Assembly: GCF_002980555.1 (NCBI RefSeq)
Contig: NZ_PVBT01000005.1
Span: forward strand, 124,001 to 188,000
DNA length: 64,000 bases
Reading direction: 5' to 3'
From: Phyllobacterium myrsinacearum
GTDB taxonomy: Bacteria; Pseudomonadota; Alphaproteobacteria; Rhizobiales; Rhizobiaceae
Shown: piece by piece, positions 24,821-37,067 of the stretch
Layout of the letters: every line of letters starts with the position of its first letter
How positions within the stretch are numbered: the first letter of the stretch is position 1
Notes under the pieces: generated by a model
Databases searched by the model: none
What the model was told of the DNA's origin: nothing
What the model saw: only the letters and a program-made list of their open reading frames with translations
Program-made: the position numbers and the translations under genes

Positions 24821-25837
24821 TTACCGCGCTGGCAGCGCATACATCAGGCCGCCGGCATTCCACAGGGCGTTGATGCCCCGGTCGATCTTCAAGGGGCTGC
24901 CCTTGCCGAGATTGCGGTCGAACATTTCACCGTAATTGCCGGTTGTCGACACGATGTTGTAGATCCAGCGCTTGTCGAGGCCCAGCGGCGCGCCCGTATC
25001 CCCCTCGGCGCCCAGAAAGCGCTTGATCGACGGATTGCCGGAGTCCATCTGCTTGGCGATGCTGTCCCTGGTAATGCCCAGCTCTTCCGCCTCGACCAGC
25101 GAAAACAACGTCCAGCGGACGATGTTGAACCAGCGGTCATCGCCCTGGCGCACCGCCGGTCCCAGCGGTTCCTTGGAAATGATCTCGGGCAATACCATGA
25201 ACCCCTCGGGGTCGGACAGGGTCAGCCTCTGCGCATAGAGTGCGGAGGCATCCGTCGTATAGACGTCGCAGCGGCCATTGTTCAGGGCGACAATGGTTTC
25301 ATCCGGGCGTTCGAACGAGACGATCTCGTAGGTGATGTTGTTCGCCTTGAAATAATCGGCGACGTTGAGTTCGGTTGTCGTGCCGGTCTCGGTGCACAGC
25401 GAGGCGCCGGAGAGTTCCTTTGCGCTCTTCACGCCCAGCGACTTCTTCACCATGAAGCCCTGCCCGTCATAATAGGCGGTGCCAACGAATTTGAGCCCCA
25501 TGGTGGTGTCGCGCGACAAGGTCCATGTGGTCTGGCGCGACAACAGATCGGCTTCGCCGGATTGCAGCGCGGTGAAACGGTCCTTGGTGGAAAGCGGAAT
25601 GAAGTTGACCTTGTCCGGGTCGCCGAAAATCGCCGCTGACACCGCATGGCAGAAATCGACATCGAAGCCGGTCCATTTGCCCGTGCTGTCCGCATTGGAA
25701 AAGCCGAGAACGCCCTGGCTGACGCCGCAATTGACGCGGCCGCGTTCCTTGATCACCGACAGCGTGTCGGCTTTGGCCGGGGTGGCGGTAAAGGCTGCCG
25801 ATGCCAGCAGCAGGGCCAGAAGTGCAGTCCGTTTCAT
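24821..25837 (-). CDS. Orphan AapJ-like amino-acid binding protein
   Basis: This protein of about 338 aa has a signal peptide (MKRTALLALLLASAAFTATPAKA) and the polar amino-acid binding fold: VNCGVSQGVLGFSNADSTGKWTGFDVDFC at about 35-63 is typical of AapJ/general L-amino-acid binding proteins, as is the long length. The start at 25837 has GAGGGAG seven bases ahead. No permease or ATPase genes follow, so it must share an Aap- or Bra-type transporter elsewhere, or act as a sensor. It lies downstream of the 1017-aa fusion on the same strand, 87 bp away, suggesting that it supplies that enzyme with a cationic or hydroxylated amino compound; this is inference. Confidence 0.88.
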   Translation of the reverse strand: MKRTALLALLLASAAFTATPAKADTLSVIKERGRVNCGVSQGVLGFSNADSTGKWTGFDVDFCHAVSAAIFGDPDKVNFIPLSTKDRFTALQSGEADLLSRQTTWTLSRDTTMGLKFVGTAYYDGQGFMVKKSLGVKSAKELSGASLCTETGTTTELNVADYFKANNITYEIVSFERPDETIVALNNGRCDVYTTDASALYAQRLTLSDPEGFMVLPEIISKEPLGPAVRQGDDRWFNIVRWTLFSLVEAEELGITRDSIAKQMDSGNPSIKRFLGAEGDTGAPLGLDKRWIYNIVSTTGNYGEMFDRNLGKGSPLKIDRGINALWNAGGLMYALPAR

Positions 25838-25876
25838 GATGTTCTCCCTCATTGTGATTGAATAAATCTTTCCCGC

Positions 25877-25899
25877 CCGCCGGACACCTTGCCCGGCGG
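25877..25899. other. Hairpin between the fusion gene and the binding-protein gene
   Basis: CCGCCGG (25877-25883) pairs with CCGGCGG (25893-25899) around nine bases. Read on the minus strand it has no U-run, so it may only dampen or protect the transcript between the two genes. Confidence 0.35.
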
Positions 25900-25924
25900 T
25901 TCGTCCTTTTCTTCGGTTTTTAGA

Positions 25925-28900
25925 TCACTGCTTCGCCAGGACGGCCGTGAACGTGTCCTCCAACACGTCGATCAGATAATCCGCATTGGCCCGGCTGAAA
26001 ATCATCGGCGGGCGCAGCTTCAGGATGTTGTCGTGCGGTCCCTCTGTTCCCATCAGGACACCGCGCTCTCTGGCGCCGTTGTTGATGGCGCGGGCAATCT
26101 GTGTGGCAGGCTCCTTGCTCTTGCGGTCCGTCACCAGCTCGATACCGAGAAACAGGCCCTGTCCGCGCACATCGCCAATGACGGCATGGCGGGCCTTCAT
26201 CTCCTCGAAGCGCTGCAGCAGGTAATTGCCTGTCTCCAGCGCATTCTGCCGCAGATTGTCGCGTTCGATCACATCGAGCACCGCAAGGCCCACCGCACAG
26301 GAAACGGGATTGCCGCCGAACGTGTTGAAATATTCCATGCCATTGTTGAAGGAAGCCGCGATCTCGCGCGTCGTCACCACCGCCGCCATGGGATGGCCAT
26401 TGCCGATGGGCTTGCCCATGGTGACGATGTCGGGCACGACGCCTTGCGTCTCGAACGCCCACCAATGGCTGCCGACGCGGCCGAAACCGACCTGCACTTC
26501 ATCCGCCGCGCAGATGCCGCCGGCGGCGCGCACCATCGCGTAGACCTCTTTGAGGTAACCATCCGGCAGGAAAACCTGACCGGCAACGCTCGGAATGGAC
26601 TCGGCAAGGAACAGGCCCGGCGCTTTTCCGGCCTTGCGCATCAACGCGATCTGTTCGGCAACGCTTTGCGCATAGCGGCTGGCAATCTCCGCCTGCGGCC
26701 AGTCGGACGGCGCGCGGTAAGGATCGGGAATGGCGGCCTCATAGACATGCGGCTTGCGGCCCTTGCCGCCCTTGCGCTTGTATTTGTAGGGGCTGAGATC
26801 GATCAGTTCCTGCGTCGTGCCATGATAGGCCCAATCGAGAACAATCGCCTCCTCGCGCCCGGTATGCGCCCGCATCATCCGCAGCATCAGGCTGTTGGCT
26901 TCGCTGCCCGAACAGGCGAAGGTCGCGACCGCGAGATCACCGGGCAGCGTCGCCGTCAGCCGCTCCGCATAGGTGACGATGTTGTCATGGAGATAGCGCG
27001 TATTGGTGTTGAGCAGGCCCGCCTGCCATGACAGAGCCCTCACCACATCCGGATGGGCATGGCCGAGATGGCAGACATTGTTGAAGCAGTCGAGATAGGC
27101 CCGGCCGCGATCGTCGATCAGCCAGACACCCTCGCCGCGCACGAACTTGATCGGCTCCGCATAGGAGATCGACAGATTGGGCAGGAGCGATGTGCGGCGC
27201 GCCGCGACGATAGCCTCCCTGCTGCGCCCCGTCTGCTGGAATGTTTCGCGTGGCAGGGCGATGAAATTGGCCGGGTCCGGGAACAGCTCGCCCCAGACCG
27301 GGAGATAGCACGCTTCGCCGACGCCGAGGATGGCGGTCGCCGACAGGGATGTATCGACCGAAAGCTGCAGATGCAGATGCGGCGCCCAGCCGCCATTTTC
27401 TGCAGGCGCGCCCATTTGGCCGACGAGATCGCCCGCTTGAAGCACATCGCCGGGACGCAGCCGCGTCATGGCCTCATGCGCAAGATGTCCCCACAGCGTT
27501 GCAAAGGGCGGGCAGCCATCCGGCGCGTGCTCAAGCTTGATCAGGCAGCCATAGCCGAGCGGATCGGGCTCGATGACGACTTCTGCGACAGTTGCCGCGA
27601 TGGGGGTGAACAGCTTCGTGCCCGCAGCCATGAAGAGATCGAGACCGAGATGCCGGGTGCGCCGCTCGCCCGCAATGAAACGCGATTCGAACATCGGGCC
27701 GGTGTAGACGGAGCGCTCTTCGCCCCACGGCCCGATGCCGAGCGCAATGCCATTTTCCGCGCAATAGGCATCCCACCACGCGGTTGCCTTATCAGGCTGC
27801 TGCGCGGCGGACCAGACGGTCATGGCATTATCAGGATCGCCATAGGGAACCAGCGCCTTGGCCGCGGTGGCCGGATGCTGCGCGAGAACGGGAGCGAATG
27901 TCCGGTTGTTGCGCTTGATCCAGCCGGCAACCGCCTTGGCCCCCGCCGCTGCATCATATCCGCAGGCATGGCGGAAAATCGCCGTGGCAAAGCCCGGATT
28001 GATCGCATCGAGGCGCCGCAGCAAGGCCCAGGCGGGGGCCTCGCTGATGGCGAGATAGGGATTGTCATCCGTCTTGTCCTTGCGCTGCGCCGACAGTGTG
28101 ACGCTGGTGACAAGCCGCATGGCGATCAGGTCGAACAGCAGGTCCAGCTCCTGTTCCTGCAAGGGATATTCCCCATGGAAACCTGCGGTGATGACGGCTG
28201 CCGCGCCGATGGGATCGTCGAGATCGAGAATGGAATAGGCGCAGGCCACCGCCACTTCCGCGATCAGCACGCTGTGCAGCGCGTCGCCGAAATCGATCAG
28301 GCCGGCAATTTTTCCCGGATTGTCCGGATCGACCAGCACATTCCAGTCATTGGCGTCATTGTGGATGACGGCGGCGCGTAAGCGAGGCAGGCGCGGCGCC
28401 ACCCGCGCCTCGAACCGGTCGAGGAAGCGGCCGAGCAGCGCACGGTCGTCGGCATTGTCGATATATTTCAGGCGCTGGCGCGACAGGCCCGCCGCCCGCA
28501 TGTCCCAGTCGAATGTCCGGAGTGCGCCGGGATGCATGAAGCCCTGCATGGCCCTGTCCAGCCGCCCAAGCATGCCGCCAAGGCTTTGCAGGACCGCCGG
28601 CGTGCGTTCGCGTTCGGCCAGGGGATCGCCGTCCTGCCAGGACACGACGCGGATGCAATGCCGCTCGCCCGATGGGGATTGAACCTGCACCAACACCTGT
28701 CCGTCCAGCGAGCGGCGCAAGCGCGGCACCGGCAGGTCGGAGGCATTGGCTTCCAGATGATGCAGCAGCGCCGTCTGGAAATCGCTCTGATCCTTCGGCT
28801 CACTGGAATTGACCGCCTTGAGTATCCAGATGGAGCCATCGGACGCATCGATCCGGAAATTCTGGTCGCGTTCGCTGGCGAGCGAACTGATCCGGCCCTC

Positions 28901-28978
28901 GATGCCGAAATGCTGCCGGGCAATGGCGAGGGCGTCCGCATTCGAAAATGCCGGTGCCGGATGGGACAGATTGATCAT
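25925..28978 (-). CDS. Three-domain fusion: APH-type kinase, M23 peptidase-like, class III aminotransferase/phospho-lyase
   Basis: This 1017-aa cytosolic protein lacks a signal peptide. Residues 1-350 are an aminoglycoside-phosphotransferase-fold kinase with catalytic H206-N-D208 and N213, and the metal Asp 229 in LIDFGD. Residues about 415-560 are an M23 (LytM) domain with both zinc motifs intact: H443-x3-D447 and H534-L-H536. Residues about 590-1017 are a class III PLP enzyme with D826 and the PLP lysine K856 ([11 protein letters not shown]). Relatives of this last domain are ethanolamine-phosphate and 5-phosphohydroxylysine phospho-lyases, and hydroxylysine kinase has an APH fold. A kinase followed by a phospho-lyase would phosphorylate an amino alcohol and then release phosphate and ammonia. 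The role of the peptidase-like domain in the cytosol is unknown. GGAG precedes the ATG; a divergent Lrp gene lies 122 bp away. Confidence 0.85.
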
Positions 28979-29038
28979 GCATCAGCTCCTTTTCACCAGA
29001 GCTTGGCACGGGCCTCAAAATGGGGCATCCGTTAATCC

Positions 29039-29074
29039 GCCGGTTTGACCGTCAGAAAGACGGCCAGAACCGGC
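29039..29074. promoter_or_regulatory. Nested dyad between the fusion gene and the Lrp gene
   Basis: GCCGGTT (29039-29045) is inverted as AACCGGC (29068-29074), and inside it CCGTC (29049-29053) is inverted as GACGG (29059-29063). The dyad lies 26 bp before the Lrp-family ATG and 60 bp from the divergent fusion gene, a fitting place for the Lrp operator; as RNA it would be a hairpin. Confidence 0.45.
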
Positions 29075-29100
29075 ATTTGGTCGGGGGGACGAAGAGGGCA

Positions 29101-29553
29101 ATGAAGGAACTCGATGAAAAGGACCGGAACATCCTGAGTATCCTGTCGCGGGATGCCAAGATTCCGCTGAAGACGCTTGCCGGAAAGATCGGCCTGTCGC
29201 GCAGCGCAACCAGCGAGCGCATTCTCTTTCTCGAACGGTCGGGCGTCATCCGCGGCTACCGGGCCGATATCGGGCAGTTGAATGAGGGCGCGATCTGCGC
29301 CTTCCTGCTGATCAGCCTGGTGCGCACCCCGGCGCTTGGCGTGCTCGACCGGCTCGCCGCCCATCCGGAAGTCCGGCGCGTTTCCTCGGTCAGCGGCCAG
29401 CTTGACTTGATTGTCGAGGTCGAGGTGCCGACGATGAACCACCTCAACACCATCCGCGATACGGTGGCGCTACTGGAGGAAGTGGATGACGTCACCACAT
29501 CCATCATCCTGCGCCGCGACATCGACCGGATGGGCAGCGACGCGGGCGCGTAA
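29101..29553 (+). CDS. Lrp/AsnC family regulator
   Basis: This 150-aa regulator begins MKELDEKDRNILSILSRDAK, with the helix-turn-helix at about 20-50 (IPLKTLAGKIGLSRSATSERI) and a RAM/ACT-type ligand domain after residue 65 (VSSVSGQLDLIVEVEV). The start at 29101 has GAGGG ahead. It is divergent from the kinase/phospho-lyase fusion and probably senses the amino compound that this locus degrades. Lrp proteins often act as activators of a neighbouring divergent amino-acid catabolic gene. Confidence 0.9.
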   Translation: MKELDEKDRNILSILSRDAKIPLKTLAGKIGLSRSATSERILFLERSGVIRGYRADIGQLNEGAICAFLLISLVRTPALGVLDRLAAHPEVRRVSSVSGQLDLIVEVEVPTMNHLNTIRDTVALLEEVDDVTTSIILRRDIDRMGSDAGA

Positions 29554-29684: not shown

Positions 29685-29852
29685 ATGAACATTTACCGGA
29701 ATTATATTGCCTGGCGCAATGCGCGCCGCACCATTGCCGAACTCAACAGCCTGCCGCTGGATCAATTGGCAGACCTCGGCATTGATCCGCTGATCCATGT
29801 GCTTGATATTCCCCTGCGCTCCTATTCGGGCAATCAGCGCGAAAGGAACTGA
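29685..29852 (+). CDS. DUF1127-like micro-protein
   Basis: This 55-aa protein contains [22 protein letters not shown], the YjiS-like DUF1127 signature of an Arg-rich helix followed by L..LP...LADLGI. The ATG at 29685 is preferred over 29679 because GACGAGG is then seven bases ahead. In alphaproteobacteria, DUF1127 proteins have been tied to RNA turnover and to phosphate or carbon stress; which applies here is unknown. Its 3' end overlaps the convergent glycerate kinase gene by 19 bp. Confidence 0.75.
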
Positions 29853-31123
29853 TCCCCGCTGATATAGACAGCGCGGAAATCATTGACATTGGTGCCGGTC
29901 GGGCCCGGCACAAAGAGATCGCCGAGCGCATCGAAGGCCGACCACGCATCATTCAAATTCAACAGGCCGCGCGCGTCCCTCCCAAGACCCGCCAGCCGCG
30001 CGGCGGTGCTGCCATCGGCAAAGGCCCCGGCATTGTCCTCCGAACCATCGATGCCGTCCGTATCGGCGGCCAGCGCCGATATCCCCCCGGCTCCGGCAAT
30101 GTCGAGCGCCAAGGACAGAAGAAATTCGGTGTTGCGCCCGCCCTTGCCGGACCCGCGCACGGTGACCGTGGTCTCTCCCCCGGACAGGAGAATCACCGGC
30201 GCCGTGAACGGCCGGTTTCTGGTCAAAACTTCGCGGGCAAGCGCGGCGTGCACATGCGCCACTTCCCGTGCCTCGCCCTCGATGGCATCCGACAGGATGA
30301 CGGCGTCGACGCCCTGGCGCCGCGCTTCGGCCGCAGCCGCGTCGAGCGAGACCGCTGCGGAGGCGATGATGCGGACCGTGTTCCGGGCAAACCCGGCATC
30401 GCCAGGGCGGGGTGCGCGCGCCGCATCCAGCGACAGATGCCGCAAGGCCGCGGGCGGCAATGCAAGGTTGTACTGGCGCACGATCGCCAATGCATCGTCC
30501 AGCGATGCGTCATCCGGCACGGTCGGCCCCGACGCGACCAGCGCCGGATTGTCGCCGGGAATATCGGATATGACAAGCGTCACAACCCGCGCCGGAAAGG
30601 CGGCGGCGGCCAGCCGCCCGCCCTTGACGGTTGAAAGGTGCTTGCGCACGGTGTTCATCGCGGAAATCGGCGCCCCGGATGCCAGCAATGCCTTGTTAAC
30701 AGCAATCTCGTCGTCGAGTGTCATGCCGTCCGGCGGTGCCGGCAACAGCGCCGAACCGCCGCCCGATATCAGCGCCACGACAAGATCGTCCTCGGTCAGA
30801 CCGGCAACCGCCGCGAACAGTCGCGCCGTGGCCTTCAGTCCCGCCGCATCGGGCACCGGGTGCGCCGCCTCGATGATCTCGATTTGCTCGCACCCCACGC
30901 CGAAACCGTAACGGGTGACCACAACCCCTTGCAGCGGGCCATCCCAGGCCTTCTCAAAAGCCCGCGCCATCTGCGCCGAGCCCTTGCCCGCACCGATGAC
31001 GATGGTCCGGCCCTTGGGCCTTTCCGGCAGGTTGGCGGCAACGGTGCGCTCGGCCTGCGCCGCCGCCACGGCGGCGTCAAACAGGGATTTCAGGAATGCC
31101 CTGGGGGCGGTTTTCAATGTCAT
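29834..31123 (-). CDS. Glycerate 2-kinase (MOFRL family)
   Basis: This 429-aa enzyme phosphorylates D-glycerate to 2-phosphoglycerate, the exit step of the glyoxylate branch encoded here. The N-terminal glycerate-kinase domain has [17 protein letters not shown] (about 41-57) and [19 protein letters not shown]; the C-terminal MOFRL domain has [20 protein letters not shown] and [14 protein letters not shown]. Homologues are named GckA or TtuD (the latter was first called hydroxypyruvate reductase). It is the last gene of the gcl-hyi-glxR-kinase operon, 33 bp after glxR. Confidence 0.92.
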
Positions 31124-31156
31124 TATTGTCCGTCCCCAGACCCTTGTCCGCCGGCC

Positions 31157-32041
31157 TCAGGCGACCGCGTGATTGGCGATGCGCTCCAGCGCCTTGACCA
31201 GTCCGGAGTGGTCGAGACCGCTGTCGCCGTTCGCCGCGCAGCTGTTGAACAATTCCTGCGTCGATGCCGTGTTGGGCAGCGAGACGCCGAGCGATTTGGC
31301 ACTCTGCAAGGCCAGGTTGAGGTCCTTCTGGTGCAGCGAGATGCGGAAGCCCGGTTCGAATGTCCGCTTGATCATCCGCTCGCCATGCAGTTCGAGAATG
31401 CGCGAGGAGGCGAAGCCGCCCATCAGCGCCTCGCGCACCCGCGCCGGATCGGCACCCGCCTTCGACGCCAGCACCAGCGCTTCGGAAATGGCTTCGATGG
31501 TCAGGGCAACGATGATCTGGTTGGCAACCTTGGTCACCTGGCCGTCGCCGCAATCGCCGACAAGCGTGATGTTCTTGCCCATCAGCTTGAACAGCGGCAG
31601 GGCCCGGTCGAAGGCGCTTTGCTCGCCGCCCGCCATAATGCTGAGCGTGGCGTTCCTGGCGCCCACTTCGCCGCCGGACACCGGCGCATCGATATATTCG
31701 CTGCCCGTCTCGCGAACCCTTTTGGCAAACTCCTTCGTCTCGATCGGCGAGATCGAGCTCATGTCGATGACGAGCTTGCCCGGCTTCAAGCCGAAGACCA
31801 CGCCGTTTTCGCCGAAGAGCACGTCCTTGACCTCCGGCGTGTCCGGCAGCATCAGGATGATGATATCCGTCTTTTCCGCCAGAGCTTTCGGGCTTTCAAC
31901 GATCTTCAGGCCGTTCTCGACCAGTTCCGGGCGCGGCTCGATGAAGAATTTCGAGGTGTAGACGTCATGCCCCGCATCCTGCAGGTGACGTGCCATGGGC
32001 GTTCCCATGATGCCCAGTCCGATGAAACCTATGTCAGCCAT
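31157..32041 (-). CDS. glxR: 2-hydroxy-3-oxopropionate (tartronate semialdehyde) reductase
   Basis: This 294-aa beta-hydroxyacid dehydrogenase reduces tartronate semialdehyde to D-glycerate. It has the N-terminal NAD(P) fingerprint GFIGLGIMGTPMARHL (5-20), the substrate motif DAPVSGGEVGA (about 119-129) and the catalytic Lys in VTKVANQI (about 170). Its position between hyi and glycerate kinase specifies the GlxR/GarR role over other family members. The start lies five bases from the hyi stop, with a GAGGA ribosome site. Confidence 0.93.
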   Translation of the reverse strand: MADIGFIGLGIMGTPMARHLQDAGHDVYTSKFFIEPRPELVENGLKIVESPKALAEKTDIIILMLPDTPEVKDVLFGENGVVFGLKPGKLVIDMSSISPIETKEFAKRVRETGSEYIDAPVSGGEVGARNATLSIMAGGEQSAFDRALPLFKLMGKNITLVGDCGDGQVTKVANQIIVALTIEAISEALVLASKAGADPARVREALMGGFASSRILELHGERMIKRTFEPGFRISLHQKDLNLALQSAKSLGVSLPNTASTQELFNSCAANGDSGLDHSGLVKALERIANHAVA

Positions 32042-32045
32042 GTCC

Positions 32046-32861
32046 TCAGCTCCTCATTCTCAAGATGTCGGCGGATTTCTGTGCGTCGGAAAAATCCTTC
32101 AGCCAGCCCAGCCCGCGTTGCGTTTCAGTCTTTGGTTTGTATTCGCAGCCGATCCAGCCGGTGTAACCGGCCTCGTCCAGTGCCTCGAACACGAAGGGAT
32201 AATTGATCTCGCCCGTGCCCGGCTCGTTCCGGCCGGGATTGTCGGCCAGCTGGATATGGGCAATGCGGTCCTTGTGGCGCTGATAGGTCGCCACCAGTTC
32301 GCCGCGCGTGCGCTGCTGGTGATAGAGATCGTACTGGATGAAGAGATTGTCGCTGCCGACCTCGTCGATGATCGATGCGGCCTGTTCCACGGTATTCAGG
32401 TAGAAGCCGGGAATATCATAGGGGTTGATCGGCTCGATCAGCAGGCGGATCTGATGTCTGGCAAGCTCCTGCGCCGCCAGGCGCAGATTATGCACGAAGG
32501 TCGTGCGCAGCACGTCCTGCGCCAGCCCGACCGGCGCAATGCCGGCAAGGCAGTTGATCTGCCTGCACCCCAGCTCGGTGGCATAGTCGATGGCCGTAGC
32601 AACGCCGCGCCGGAATTCATCGATGCGGTCGGGCAGCACCGCAATGCCGCGCTCGCCGCCCGCCCAGTTGCCGGCCGGAAGATTGTGCAGCACCTGCACC
32701 AGCCGGTGTTCGCCAAGTTTCCGTTTGAGAACGGCGGCATCGAACTCATAGGGGAAGAGATATTCCACCGCATCGAAACCCGCCTGGCTGGCCAGTGCAA
32801 AGCGGTCGAGAAACGGAACCTCGTTGAAGAGCATGGTCAGATTGGCTGCAAATTTTGGCAT
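32046..32861 (-). CDS. hyi: Hydroxypyruvate isomerase
   Basis: This 271-aa TIM-barrel protein of the AP-endonuclease-2/xylose-isomerase-like family interconverts hydroxypyruvate and tartronate semialdehyde. Typical blocks are MPKFAANLTMLFNEVPFLDRF at the N-terminus (first 21 residues), LIEPINPYDIPGFYL (about 145-159), QYDLYHQQ and HIQLADNPGRNEPGTGEINY, which hold metal ligands (Glu, Asp, His). GGAGG lies upstream of the ATG. It sits 25 bp after gcl. Confidence 0.93.
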   Translation of the reverse strand: MPKFAANLTMLFNEVPFLDRFALASQAGFDAVEYLFPYEFDAAVLKRKLGEHRLVQVLHNLPAGNWAGGERGIAVLPDRIDEFRRGVATAIDYATELGCRQINCLAGIAPVGLAQDVLRTTFVHNLRLAAQELARHQIRLLIEPINPYDIPGFYLNTVEQAASIIDEVGSDNLFIQYDLYHQQRTRGELVATYQRHKDRIAHIQLADNPGRNEPGTGEINYPFVFEALDEAGYTGWIGCEYKPKTETQRGLGWLKDFSDAQKSADILRMRS

Positions 32862-32886
32862 GGGACCTCCGGAAAGTCAGTGAATG

Positions 32887-34671
<1,785 letters not shown>

Positions 34672-34726
34672 GATCATTCCTCCGTATTTAGTGAGATCAT
34701 AATCCGTTTCATGAATCACACAATGA

Positions 34727-34738
34727 ATTTCTGGAAAT
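34727..34738. promoter_or_regulatory. Candidate IclR operator between gcl and iclR
   Basis: ATTTC-TG-GAAAT is a perfect short inverted repeat in the AT-rich divergent promoter region. GGAAAT-AAAG-ATTTTC (34755-34770) is an imperfect second copy. IclR proteins commonly recognise GGAAAT/ATTTCC-type palindromes. Confidence 0.45.
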
Positions 34739-34837
34739 CATTCTCATGATATGGAAATAAAGATTTTCAATAAAACTGGTAAAATCAACGGCGCCGGATT
34801 ATGCCAATGCATCGTAATGCAAGGGGAAGATGCCAGC

Positions 34838-35668
34838 ATGGCCTCACAGTCGACAGCAGCGAAAGGCAGGCGGGGACGCAAGGCGGGCGAGAATGCCGTG
34901 CCGTCCTCGGTTCAGGTGCTTGACCGCAGCCTCCATCTGCTCAGCATCGTCGCCGACAATGACGGATCGACGCTGACCGACCTTGCCGACCATACCGGAA
35001 TGGCGCCATCGACCGTTCACCGGCTGCTGACATCGCTTGCCAATCACGGCATGCTCGCGCATGACCCGGAATCCGGCGAATGGACGGTCGGCGTGCGAGC
35101 TTTTGAAATCGGCAATGCCTTCCTGCGCTACCGCAAGCTTGGCAGCATCAGCCGGCCATTCCTGAAAAGGCTGATGGACGCGTGCGGGGAGACAGCCAAT
35201 GTCGCCATCGAGGATGAAGGCGATGTGGTCTTCATTTCGCAGATCGAGAGCCATGCGCCGATGCGCGCCTTCTTCCGGCCGGGACGGCGCGGCCCCATCC
35301 ATGCATCGGGCATCGGCAAGGCGATCCTGTCGACCTGGTCGGACACCGATATCGGCCAGATGCTCAGCGGCAAGACGCTGGCGCATTTCACCGCCCACAC
35401 GCTCGATACGCTGCCCGCTCTCCTGAAGGACATCCAGCAGATCCGCGCACGCGGCTGGTCGATCGATGATGAGGAGCACACGCTCGGCATGCGCTGCATC
35501 GCAGCACCCGTCTTCAATGAACACGGGGAAGCCATTGCCGGGATTTCAATTTCAGGCCCGGCCGTGCGCCTGCCCAAGAACAAGCTGGATGTGTTTGGAC
35601 CGGTCATCCACCGGACCGCCGATGAACTGACGCAGGCCATGGGCGGCCGCAAACCGCACGAACTCTAG
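34838..35668 (+). CDS. IclR family regulator of glyoxylate/purine genes
   Basis: This 276-aa regulator has a winged helix (LTDLADHTGMAPSTVHRLLTSLANHGML, about 48-75) and the IclR effector domain (GRRGPIHASGIGKAILS and GWSIDDEEHTLGMRCIAAPVF). It resembles AllR, the allantoin/glyoxylate-responsive repressor. The start at 34838 is chosen because AGGGGA lies ten bases upstream; an ATG at 34751 would add a 29-residue tail overlapping the presumed operator. It is divergent from gcl. Glyoxylate or an allantoin product is the likely effector, by analogy. Confidence 0.88.
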   Translation: MASQSTAAKGRRGRKAGENAVPSSVQVLDRSLHLLSIVADNDGSTLTDLADHTGMAPSTVHRLLTSLANHGMLAHDPESGEWTVGVRAFEIGNAFLRYRKLGSISRPFLKRLMDACGETANVAIEDEGDVVFISQIESHAPMRAFFRPGRRGPIHASGIGKAILSTWSDTDIGQMLSGKTLAHFTAHTLDTLPALLKDIQQIRARGWSIDDEEHTLGMRCIAAPVFNEHGEAIAGISISGPAVRLPKNKLDVFGPVIHRTADELTQAMGGRKPHEL

Positions 35669-35678
35669 CGGGGAAAGC

Positions 35679-35703
35679 AAAAGGGGGCCGCTGGCCCCCT
35701 TTT
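35679..35703. terminator. Bidirectional terminator between iclR and guaD
   Basis: AAAAGGGGGCC and GGCCCCCTTTT form a perfect 11-bp stem around GCT. The A-run and T-run on both sides let it end both convergent transcripts. Confidence 0.9.
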
Positions 35704-35711
35704 CGTCATCC

Positions 35712-37067
35712 TCAGGCGATCTGCAGATCGGCCGCTGACCGGGCGGGGCCCGCCGCCGGATGTTTGTCGAGCCTGCTCTTCATCGGCTTGCCCGCTACAT
35801 AGACCTCGGCCACCGAACGGTCATCCCCCATGGTCTGCAGGATGAACAGCTCTTCGGCGAGCGTCGTTGCCGTGCGCATGCGCAATTCCATCGCCGGCTT
35901 GGCGCGGCTGTCGAGAACCGTGATATCCGCATCGGCACCCGCATGCAGCGATCCGATCCGGTCTTCAAGGCCGAGTGCCCGCGCATTGCCGAGCGTCATC
36001 ATGTAATAGGACGCGAAGGGCGAGAGGCGCTGGCCCTGCACGTGCAGTACCTTGTAGGCTTCGGCCATTGTCTCCAGCATGGAGAAGCTGGTGCCGCCGC
36101 CGACATCCGTCGCCACGGAAAACCGCGCGCCCAGCGTCTGGAACCGGTCGCGGTCGAACAGGCCGCTGCCGAGGAACAGATTGGAGGTCGGGCAGAAGAC
36201 CGCCACGGACCCGGTTTCGGCCAGCACCGCAATTTCCCGGTCGGACAGGTAGATGCAGTGCCCGAGCAGCATCTTTTTGCCCAGAAGATCATAGCCGGCA
36301 TAGATGTCGGTATAATCCTTGGCGGCGGGGTAAAGCGAGGTTGCATAGGCAACCTCGTCGCGGTTTTCCGACAGGTGCGTCTGCACGTAGCATTCGGGAT
36401 GTTCGCGCACGAGAACCCGGCTCATCTCCATCTGCTCGGGGGTCGAGGTGATGGCAAAGCGCGGGCTGATGGCATAGTGCGCCCGGCCCCGGCCGTGCCA
36501 TTTCGCGATCAGCGCCTTGGTCTCGTCGTAACCGGTCTGCGCCGTGTCGCGCAGCCCTTCCGGCGCATTGCGGTCCATCATGACCTTGCCGCCGATCATC
36601 AGCATGTTGCGCTTTTCCGCTGCCGCAAAATAAGCATCGACGCTTTCCGGATGCACCGAGCAATAGGCAACCGCCGAGGTGGTGCCGTTGCGCAGGAGTT
36701 CGTCCATGAAGCGCCCGGCGATGAAATCGGCATGGGCTGAAGACGCGAACTTCTGCTCTTCAACGAAGATGTAGGTATTGAGCCATTCCAGCAGCTGCGC
36801 CCCGTAGGAGGCGATGGCCTGCGTCTGCGGGAAGTGCAGATGCGTGTCGATGAAACCGGGCAGGATCAGATGCGGGCGGTGATCGACGATCTCCGCCTGC
36901 GGCCCCGCCAGAGGCGCAAGCGCCGCATGGTCGCCGACGCGGACAACCCTGCCGTTTTCGATGAGAACGGCACCATCTTCAAAATAGGAATAGGACGCCG
37001 TGTCGTCGATGCTCTTCGGCGCATCGGTGAAGGTCAGCACCCGGCCGCGCAGCAGCAGTTGGCTCAT
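35712..37067 (-). CDS. guaD: Guanine deaminase
   Basis: This 451-aa amidohydrolase converts guanine to xanthine. Zinc motifs are DTHLHFPQ (about 74-81), the conserved His in ISPRFAITSTPEQ and QTHLSEN, GHCIYL and the Asp in ATDVGGGTS. It overlaps the puuD stop by four bases (ATGA), so puuD-guaD is an operon feeding xanthine to xanthine dehydrogenase and the resulting urate to PuuD. A strong terminator follows. Confidence 0.94.
   Translation of the reverse strand: MSQLLLRGRVLTFTDAPKSIDDTASYSYFEDGAVLIENGRVVRVGDHAALAPLAGPQAEIVDHRPHLILPGFIDTHLHFPQTQAIASYGAQLLEWLNTYIFVEEQKFASSAHADFIAGRFMDELLRNGTTSAVAYCSVHPESVDAYFAAAEKRNMLMIGGKVMMDRNAPEGLRDTAQTGYDETKALIAKWHGRGRAHYAISPRFAITSTPEQMEMSRVLVREHPECYVQTHLSENRDEVAYATSLYPAAKDYTDIYAGYDLLGKKMLLGHCIYLSDREIAVLAETGSVAVFCPTSNLFLGSGLFDRDRFQTLGARFSVATDVGGGTSFSMLETMAEAYKVLHVQGQRLSPFASYYMMTLGNARALGLEDRIGSLHAGADADITVLDSRAKPAMELRMRTATTLAEELFILQTMGDDRSVAEVYVAGKPMKSRLDKHPAAGPARSAADLQIA

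Follow-up and report, generated by a model that had tools for sequence, protein, structure and literature searches.

In the classical aminoalcohol kinase/phospho-lyase route, ethanolamine is converted to acetaldehyde, ammonia, and phosphate. In mammals, a hydroxylysine kinase and a 5-phosphohydroxylysine phospho-lyase were reportedly described by Veiga-da-Cunha et al. in 2012. Enzymes of the M23 peptidase family are normally secreted and act as cell-wall hydrolases. All three kinds of domain—kinase, M23, and phospho-lyase—are joined in one protein of Phyllobacterium myrsinacearum, encoded at positions 25925–28978 on the minus strand of a 64,000-nucleotide stretch of contig NZ_PVBT01000005.1 (hereafter, the window). 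This three-domain architecture is already catalogued as PRK06148 (“hypothetical protein”), with no function assigned in NCBIfam, and the records examined label the protein either an aminotransferase-fold enzyme or a hypothetical protein. We tentatively read it as a cytosolic 5-hydroxylysine-degrading enzyme, composed of a kinase and a phospho-lyase and of an M23 domain that would free hydroxylysine from small peptides.

Among the matches listed in the open-licence literature, a scope outside of which most subscription papers lie, there was no paper on this fusion or on bacterial use of hydroxylysine glycosides; one of them, a Mycoplasma secretome paper, mentions PRK06148.

Domains and predicted chemistry of the fusion

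The open reading frame (ORF) encodes a single 1017-residue protein, with an ATG start preceded by an AGGAG sequence and with no internal stops. It is not a chance frame, since full-length relatives exist at 38–96% identity; relatives on two Phyllobacterium plasmids are 85–88% identical to it, and its own genome holds one full-length copy of the gene. The protein is a member of PRK06148 (NF004799), scoring 1613.9 bits against a cut-off of 1128 over profile positions 1–1013 of 1015, and is not a member of PRK06149 (NF004800), for which its 669.7 bits fall below the cut-off of 973. No signal peptide is seen by eye at the N-terminus, and all three domains should therefore be cytosolic. The features of the protein are as follows.

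25925..28978, minus strand: three-domain protein (kinase, M23, phospho-lyase) of the PRK06148 type, from ORF, Pfam, and NCBIfam
28214..28882, minus strand: APH-type small-molecule kinase domain, residues 33–255, with K54, H206-N207-D208, N213, and D229 (Pfam APH, PF01636, E 9.5e-27)
27209..27958, minus strand: middle module, residues 341–590, a helical linker plus M23 fold, relatives of which stand alone elsewhere
27353..27655, minus strand: Peptidase_M23 core, residues 442–542, with H443, D447, H498, H534, and H536 (Pfam E 1.2e-9)
25952..27151, minus strand: Aminotran_3 fold of the phospho-lyase type, residues 610–1009, with D826 and K856 (Pfam E 2.2e-73)

A fusion of these three domains had been proposed in an earlier note made from the letters, and both the ORF and the Pfam matches confirm it; the residues named there (H206-N207-D208, D229, H443, D447, H534, H536, D826, and K856) are all present, and two further conserved residues, K54 in the kinase and H498 in the M23 domain, can be added to them.

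The lyase domain is 48–49% identical to human ethanolamine-phosphate phospho-lyase (ETNPPL; PDB 6tor) and 38–41% identical to an Arthrobacter phospholyase (PDB 5g4i), with E-values of 2e-135 and 1.8e-101 for these two phospho-lyases and 1.8e-59 for the next enzyme. In a structure search with the full model, the same two rank first and second; the best 50 matches per list are all class-III pyridoxal phosphate (PLP) enzymes, and have no bearing on the kinase or the M23 domain. By these similarities, the PLP domain is assigned to the phospho-lyase branch of the class-III aminotransferases, nearer to phospho-lyases than to transaminases. The kinase domain combines an APH fold with the catalytic residues K54, D208, and D229, each found in 101 of 101 aligned proteins. 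Very probably, the pair of kinase and phospho-lyase works on an amino alcohol or amino acid in phosphorylated form. Such kinase/lyase chemistry is well supported as a prediction: in this respect the earlier note's pairing of a kinase with a PLP phospho-lyase stands, the identity to ETNPPL speaking for the chemistry. As a separate observation, the gene immediately after a lyase gene of this family at locus L250 (6226–8999) belongs to the glutamine synthetase family, which may point to gamma-glutamylation as another route for these amines.

The M23 site in fusions and on its own

The match to the Peptidase_M23 profile reaches 38.7 bits, above the gathering cut-off of 28.7. H443, D447, H498, H534, and H536, along with D208, D229, K54, D826, and K856, are identical in all 101 aligned proteins (window included), and kinase H206 is conserved in 100 of them, with 74 of the 101 having come from a pattern scan that itself required some of these residues. 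The five M23 residues, among which H498 and H534 would correspond to the catalytic histidines of known M23 enzymes, are also intact in 26 of 26 homologues found outside the pattern scan—and this with M23 identity to the window of just 34–43% in 17 of the 26—although 21 of these homologues were retrieved by searching with the M23 module, a search in which decayed forms could not appear.

A survey of kinase–lyase fusions, selecting on kinase and lyase, closes the gap left by this bias. After removal of duplicates by the last 300 residues (152 reduced to 128), all five M23 residues were found in 110 of the 128 distinct fusions and at most one in 11, with seven lacking a middle domain (two of these seven frames, L016 and L021, being short or odd). 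All 11 site-less fusions, out of the 121 with a middle domain, are of the PRK06149 type. The M23 metal/catalytic site is, in other words, retained whole or lost whole in kinase–lyase fusions. In 13 of the 14 relatives compared, identity to the window protein is also higher in the M23 domain than in the kinase.

A profile built from six PRK06149-type middle parts aligns with that of the M23 module (hhalign probability 98.7, E 1.9e-16), which identifies this part, at the level of profiles, as a decayed form of the M23 fold, still present although the metal site is gone. Such decayed folds are carried by the PRK06149-type proteins of L038 (12253–15183), L048 (7128–10043), and L208–L211, with Pfam blind to them in the two scanned (L038 and L048), and the NCBIfam name of PRK06149, “aminotransferase,” conceals both the kinase and the pseudo-peptidase domain.

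The module also occurs outside of the three-domain form. Stand-alone M23 modules of about 300–380 residues are found in four loci (L042, L159, L162, and L199), and M23–lyase fusions that lack the kinase in three genomes, all from a single genus (L198, L258, and L259). In the M23 tree, the modules of L042, L159, and L162 fall inside the three-domain forms (support 0.98) and that of L199 groups near the M23–lyase forms; in the lyase tree, the M23–lyase forms nest inside the three-domain clade. Rooted with an outgroup, the lyase tree places the decayed forms at its first split and the three-domain clade at the next, an order that differed in the run without an outgroup, and no ancestral architecture is inferred from it. 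The lone modules of L042 (8295–9212), L159 (8746–9693), and L162 (8557–9690) share same-strand clusters with genes for an amidase and for a binding protein of family 5 (oligopeptide-type); the L162 amidase is split over two frames, and the L159 amidase and binding protein share one open frame. In L198 (6779–10295), the M23–lyase fusion is followed by one further gene and an FkbM-type methyltransferase gene, and no kinase of this family was found within the 18-kb stretch.

A module that survives with its catalytic residues and without its partners is best read as a working hydrolase, and the M23 domain of the fusion is, in our estimate, probably catalytically active. The competing view makes the middle domain a zinc-binding scaffold with a structural role, or an allosteric sensor, joining kinase and lyase and cleaving nothing. 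It would account for the presence of a normally secreted family in a protein that has no signal peptide, and the persistence of the PRK06149 fold without a metal site means that the fold is of some use by itself; kinase and lyase, moreover, are also seen as a simple fusion of the two domains or encoded by separate genes. However, H498 and H534 are kept along with the metal ligands in all 110 fusions, and the lone modules of the four loci have nothing to hold together, three of them keeping company with an amidase and a peptide-type binding protein. We regard a scaffold or sensor as rather unlikely.

Sugar-removing genes and the substrate

The three-domain gene is widespread but patchy, with the top named loci belonging to Rhizobiales, Rhodobacterales-type, Pseudomonas, Paraburkholderia, Gemmatimonadetes, and Bacteroidetes records. 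A module match (E 1e-24 or better; next 1e-7) was found in 23 of 297 genomes of the order, in every case in an ORF of 1000–1076 residues, and the gene is present in 7 of 21 genomes of the same genus, its own included. A viral origin was set aside after a single scan of viral contigs turned up no relative of the protein.

In some relatives (Sinorhizobium, Ensifer, Mesorhizobium, and Rhodobacterales-type), the gene adjoins an amino-acid ATP-binding cassette (ABC) importer, a LacI regulator, a GH1 or GH42 glycosidase, and often an alpha-glucosidase-like enzyme. Overlaps of the ATGA kind link the three-domain frame to a GH42 beta-galactosidase gene after it in L160 and to an MGH1-like glycosidase gene before it in L165; in L163–L165, genes for a binding protein, a GH1 enzyme, a LacI regulator, and a permease follow it. 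A cluster in one stretch is found on plasmid p_2 of S. meliloti RCAM1115 (annotated), on pSymB of S. meliloti 1021, and on two Ensifer plasmids, comprising on its enzyme side LacI, an amino-acid binding protein and permease, and the three-domain gene, and on its sugar side a sugar binding protein, an MGH1-like “amylo-alpha-1,6-glucosidase,” LacI, and GH42. At the Mesorhizobium loci L091 and L093, and in G104 and G171, the three-domain gene is followed by LacI, a binding protein, a permease, and GH1; here, it belongs to the window's own branch (68–82% identity per domain), and the same glycosidase set thus joins two different enzyme branches.

Among loci of at least 9 kb, glycosidases accompany 6 of 81 three-domain genes, versus none of 84 others (10 decayed, 64 split or lyase-only, 3 two-domain, 3 M23–lyase, and 4 M23), with loci carrying both a three-domain and a PRK06149-type gene counted once, and with L091 standing outside of the count though it carries the glycosidase module. 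The cluster-type binding protein was found in 6 of 297 genomes of the order, drawn in the same way as those of the module search and taken with them as one sample. Five of the six have the LacI–binding protein–permease–GH1 set, and all five own a three-domain gene, linked to the set in two and elsewhere in the genome in three; the sixth lacks a GH1 gene in that stretch and gives no match to the three-domain gene. With the three-domain gene in 23 of 297 genomes, the chance probability of this five-out-of-five co-occurrence is about 2e-6, the five genomes representing two genera only.

Passages of two papers state that the 5-hydroxylysine of collagen carries a Glc-alpha-1,2-Gal unit (PMC8626586, PMC11012932). 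An importer of amino acids, combined with enzymes resembling a beta-galactosidase and an alpha-glucosidase and with an amino-alcohol kinase/lyase, would fit one well-known natural compound, namely the Glc-alpha-1,2-Gal-hydroxylysine of collagen, and the gene set suggests this alpha-Glc-beta-Gal-hydroxylysine more readily than ethanolamine. Hydroxylysine as the substrate is moderately supported, and of the two compounds we consider it, rather than ethanolamine, somewhat the likelier.

In the proposed scheme, the adjoining binding protein and ABC importer would bring in hydroxylysine or a small hydroxylysine-containing compound. In relatives with the sugar-removing genes, the beta-galactosidase-type enzyme and alpha-glucosidase would first strip the glucosyl-galactosyl unit, baring the exact hydroxyl that the kinase is to phosphorylate. 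As an active zinc hydrolase, the M23 domain would cleave a short peptide, for example hydroxylysyl-glycine, and so set hydroxylysine free. Cleavage of glycine bonds is a known trait of M23 enzymes, and hydroxylysine in collagen peptides is followed by glycine, so that the M23 step would most simply be release from small collagen peptides. The kinase would then phosphorylate the 5-hydroxyl of hydroxylysine, and the PLP domain would eliminate phosphate and ammonia to give allysine (2-aminoadipate semialdehyde), which would enter lysine catabolism. The substrate, the order of steps, and the M23 activity are what we infer from the domains, intact sites, conservation, and gene association seen in the sequences. 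A bacterial pathway for collagen glycosyl-hydroxylysine as a whole, that is, ABC uptake of glucosyl-galactosyl-hydroxylysine (or a peptide), cytosolic deglycosylation, and then the peptidase/kinase/lyase protein, is possible but speculative.

Several observations weigh against hydroxylysine degradation. Most three-domain genes have no glycosidase beside them, and those that do come from few independent lineages; the p-values therefore overstate the association. The P. myrsinacearum genome itself has no match to the GH1 or alpha-glucosidase queries, so that its substrate would be free or peptide-bound hydroxylysine. A search of 372 genomes of the class for the Rhodobacterales-type binding protein gave no match at E 1e-65, and the association of that type thus rests on the few loci examined. 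S. terangae (L282) has the alpha-glucosidase, GH42, and the sugar binding protein, yet no gene of the three-domain kind within about 13 kb of them, which means that the sugar part in Sinorhizobium may be a mere neighbor. Finally, another lyase of the family (L216) adjoins an ethanolamine permease that scores above its curated cut-off, weaker permease matches being present in L043 and L277, and ethanolamine is therefore a likely substrate in the wider family.

For the fusion itself, ethanolamine (or 1-amino-2-propanol) would yield acetaldehyde, ammonia, and phosphate, with the M23 domain having an unrelated or regulatory role. The closest solved relative of the lyase is indeed human ethanolamine-phosphate phospho-lyase, and related lyases adjoin, apart from the permease of L216, a betaine-aldehyde-dehydrogenase-like gene (L053). 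However, the lyases of both L216 and L053 fall outside of the three-domain clade, and the annotated importers beside three-domain genes are polar-amino-acid ABC systems, or a branched-chain-type ABC system (L145), rather than ethanolamine permeases. A beta-galactosidase and an alpha-glucosidase beside an ethanolamine enzyme would have no obvious use, and a diaminopimelate-epimerase-family gene that overlaps the three-domain start in two Gemmatimonadetes metagenome-assembled genomes suggests a substrate with an alpha-carbon. Ethanolamine is accordingly not favored, and we judge it improbable, if with some claim, as the substrate of the fusion.

A further alternative, which we consider unlikely, holds that the M23 domain is a deacylase removing an N-acyl or other amide group before phosphorylation, with unrelated hydrolases serving alike in other lineages. 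An ArgE/DapE-type M20 gene does lie beside M23-less kinase–lyase pairs in L200, L201, and L247 (all of one genus), and other lyase loci have a histone-deacetylase family gene (L202), an M20 gene behind the lyase (L249), or a metallo-beta-lactamase-fold gene before it (L214), with ATGA overlaps read in L201, L202, and L214. Against this, an adjoining hydrolase is present in only 6 of 72 lyase loci (75 surveyed, minus L219, L232, and L270, which lack a lyase), and most of the 59 operon neighbors scanned, out of 102, belong to unrelated families. A metal hydrolase neighbor as a general rule for kinase–lyase pairs was rejected on the same count and is kept solely as this rival.

A substrate from peptidoglycan, or a diaminopimelate-like amino acid, would explain the M23 cell-wall hydrolase family directly, and the epimerase-family neighbor of the two Gemmatimonadetes genomes would agree with it; yet that neighbor may be a housekeeping dapF, L158 also holds glycosyltransferase genes, and no other cell-wall gene turned up among those neighbors of three-domain genes that were annotated, leaving this explanation very improbable. 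The two epimerase-family genes (L157, 5214–6089; L158, 7070–7939), both meeting the three-domain start in an ATGA overlap, are 75% identical to each other, and Pfam was run on that of L158 only. A lipoyl/biotinyl-like carrier was set aside by judgment, with M23 residues intact and the M23 profile matching.

Hydroxylysine degradation with an M23 release step is thus the reading that we prefer. The interpretation in the earlier note is supported in part: it had named amino alcohols and hydroxylysine as candidate substrates, and the gene neighborhood of some relatives now favors the latter; of the M23 roles it had entertained, the substrate-releasing peptidase for collagen-like peptides is retained in preference, and the scaffold and lipoyl-like module are less likely, since the M23 metal and catalytic residues stay as a set in 110 fusions and disappear as a set in 11, and since the module persists alone.

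Genomic setting and comparison with known systems

Three features flank the enzyme in the window.

24821..25852, minus strand: periplasmic amino-acid-binding protein (SBP_bac_3), downstream on the same strand, with a homologue directly downstream in many relatives
25853..25924, minus strand: intergenic stem-loop in the 72-base gap between enzyme and binding protein (−22.7 kcal/mol, z −2.8)
29020..29553, plus strand: Lrp/AsnC-type regulator, upstream and divergent, with a homologue beside the enzyme in many relatives

Across 106 loci, the Lrp/AsnC-type cluster is present in at least 39, the binding-protein cluster in at least 28 (24 of its 29 members lying directly downstream of the enzyme), and a polar-amino-acid ABC permease cluster in at least 21; these counts are floors, as many flanks are short and overlapping antisense ORFs displaced genes. 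The best NCBIfam match of the window binding protein is of the lysine/arginine/ornithine type, and those of the binding proteins scanned are of the lysine/arginine/ornithine and cystine types, all below their cut-offs. The stem-loop has no clear T-run, and is perhaps an mRNA-stabilizing or attenuating element. Farther along, at 29834–37067, the window carries genes of a glyoxylate route (glycerate kinase-type, tartronate semialdehyde reductase, hydroxypyruvate isomerase, and glyoxylate carboligase), together with an IclR-type regulator close to BhcR and a guanine deaminase.

If correct, hydroxylysine degradation by the fusion would identify how bacteria break down hydroxylysine and the glycosides of it in collagen, and would place an M23 peptidase, otherwise a cell-wall tool, in small-molecule metabolism; we know of no M23 enzyme with an intracellular metabolic role from elsewhere, although no search aimed at one was made. 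The decayed PRK06149 family and the stand-alone module would serve as natural controls for the role of the M23 site, and the pSymB cluster makes the idea testable in a model rhizobium, S. meliloti 1021.

Compared with known systems, the window protein is a full-length member of the PRK06148 family, with the same three domains. The PRK06149 family has the same order of kinase, M23-like fold, and lyase, but its middle domain lacks the M23 site. ETNPPL and the Arthrobacter phospholyase share the fold and the catalytic Lys and Asp with the window lyase, but are stand-alone lyases without a kinase or M23 domain. The HxxxD and HxH motifs are shared, at weak similarity (E 2.5e-4 to 0.034), with the M23 peptidases PDB 2hsi, lysostaphin, and LytM, which are secreted cell-wall enzymes, whereas the window M23 domain sits inside a cytosolic metabolic enzyme. 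The mammalian hydroxylysine kinase and phospho-lyase would share with the fusion the two-step chemistry proposed here, but are, to our knowledge, two separate proteins with no peptidase domain.
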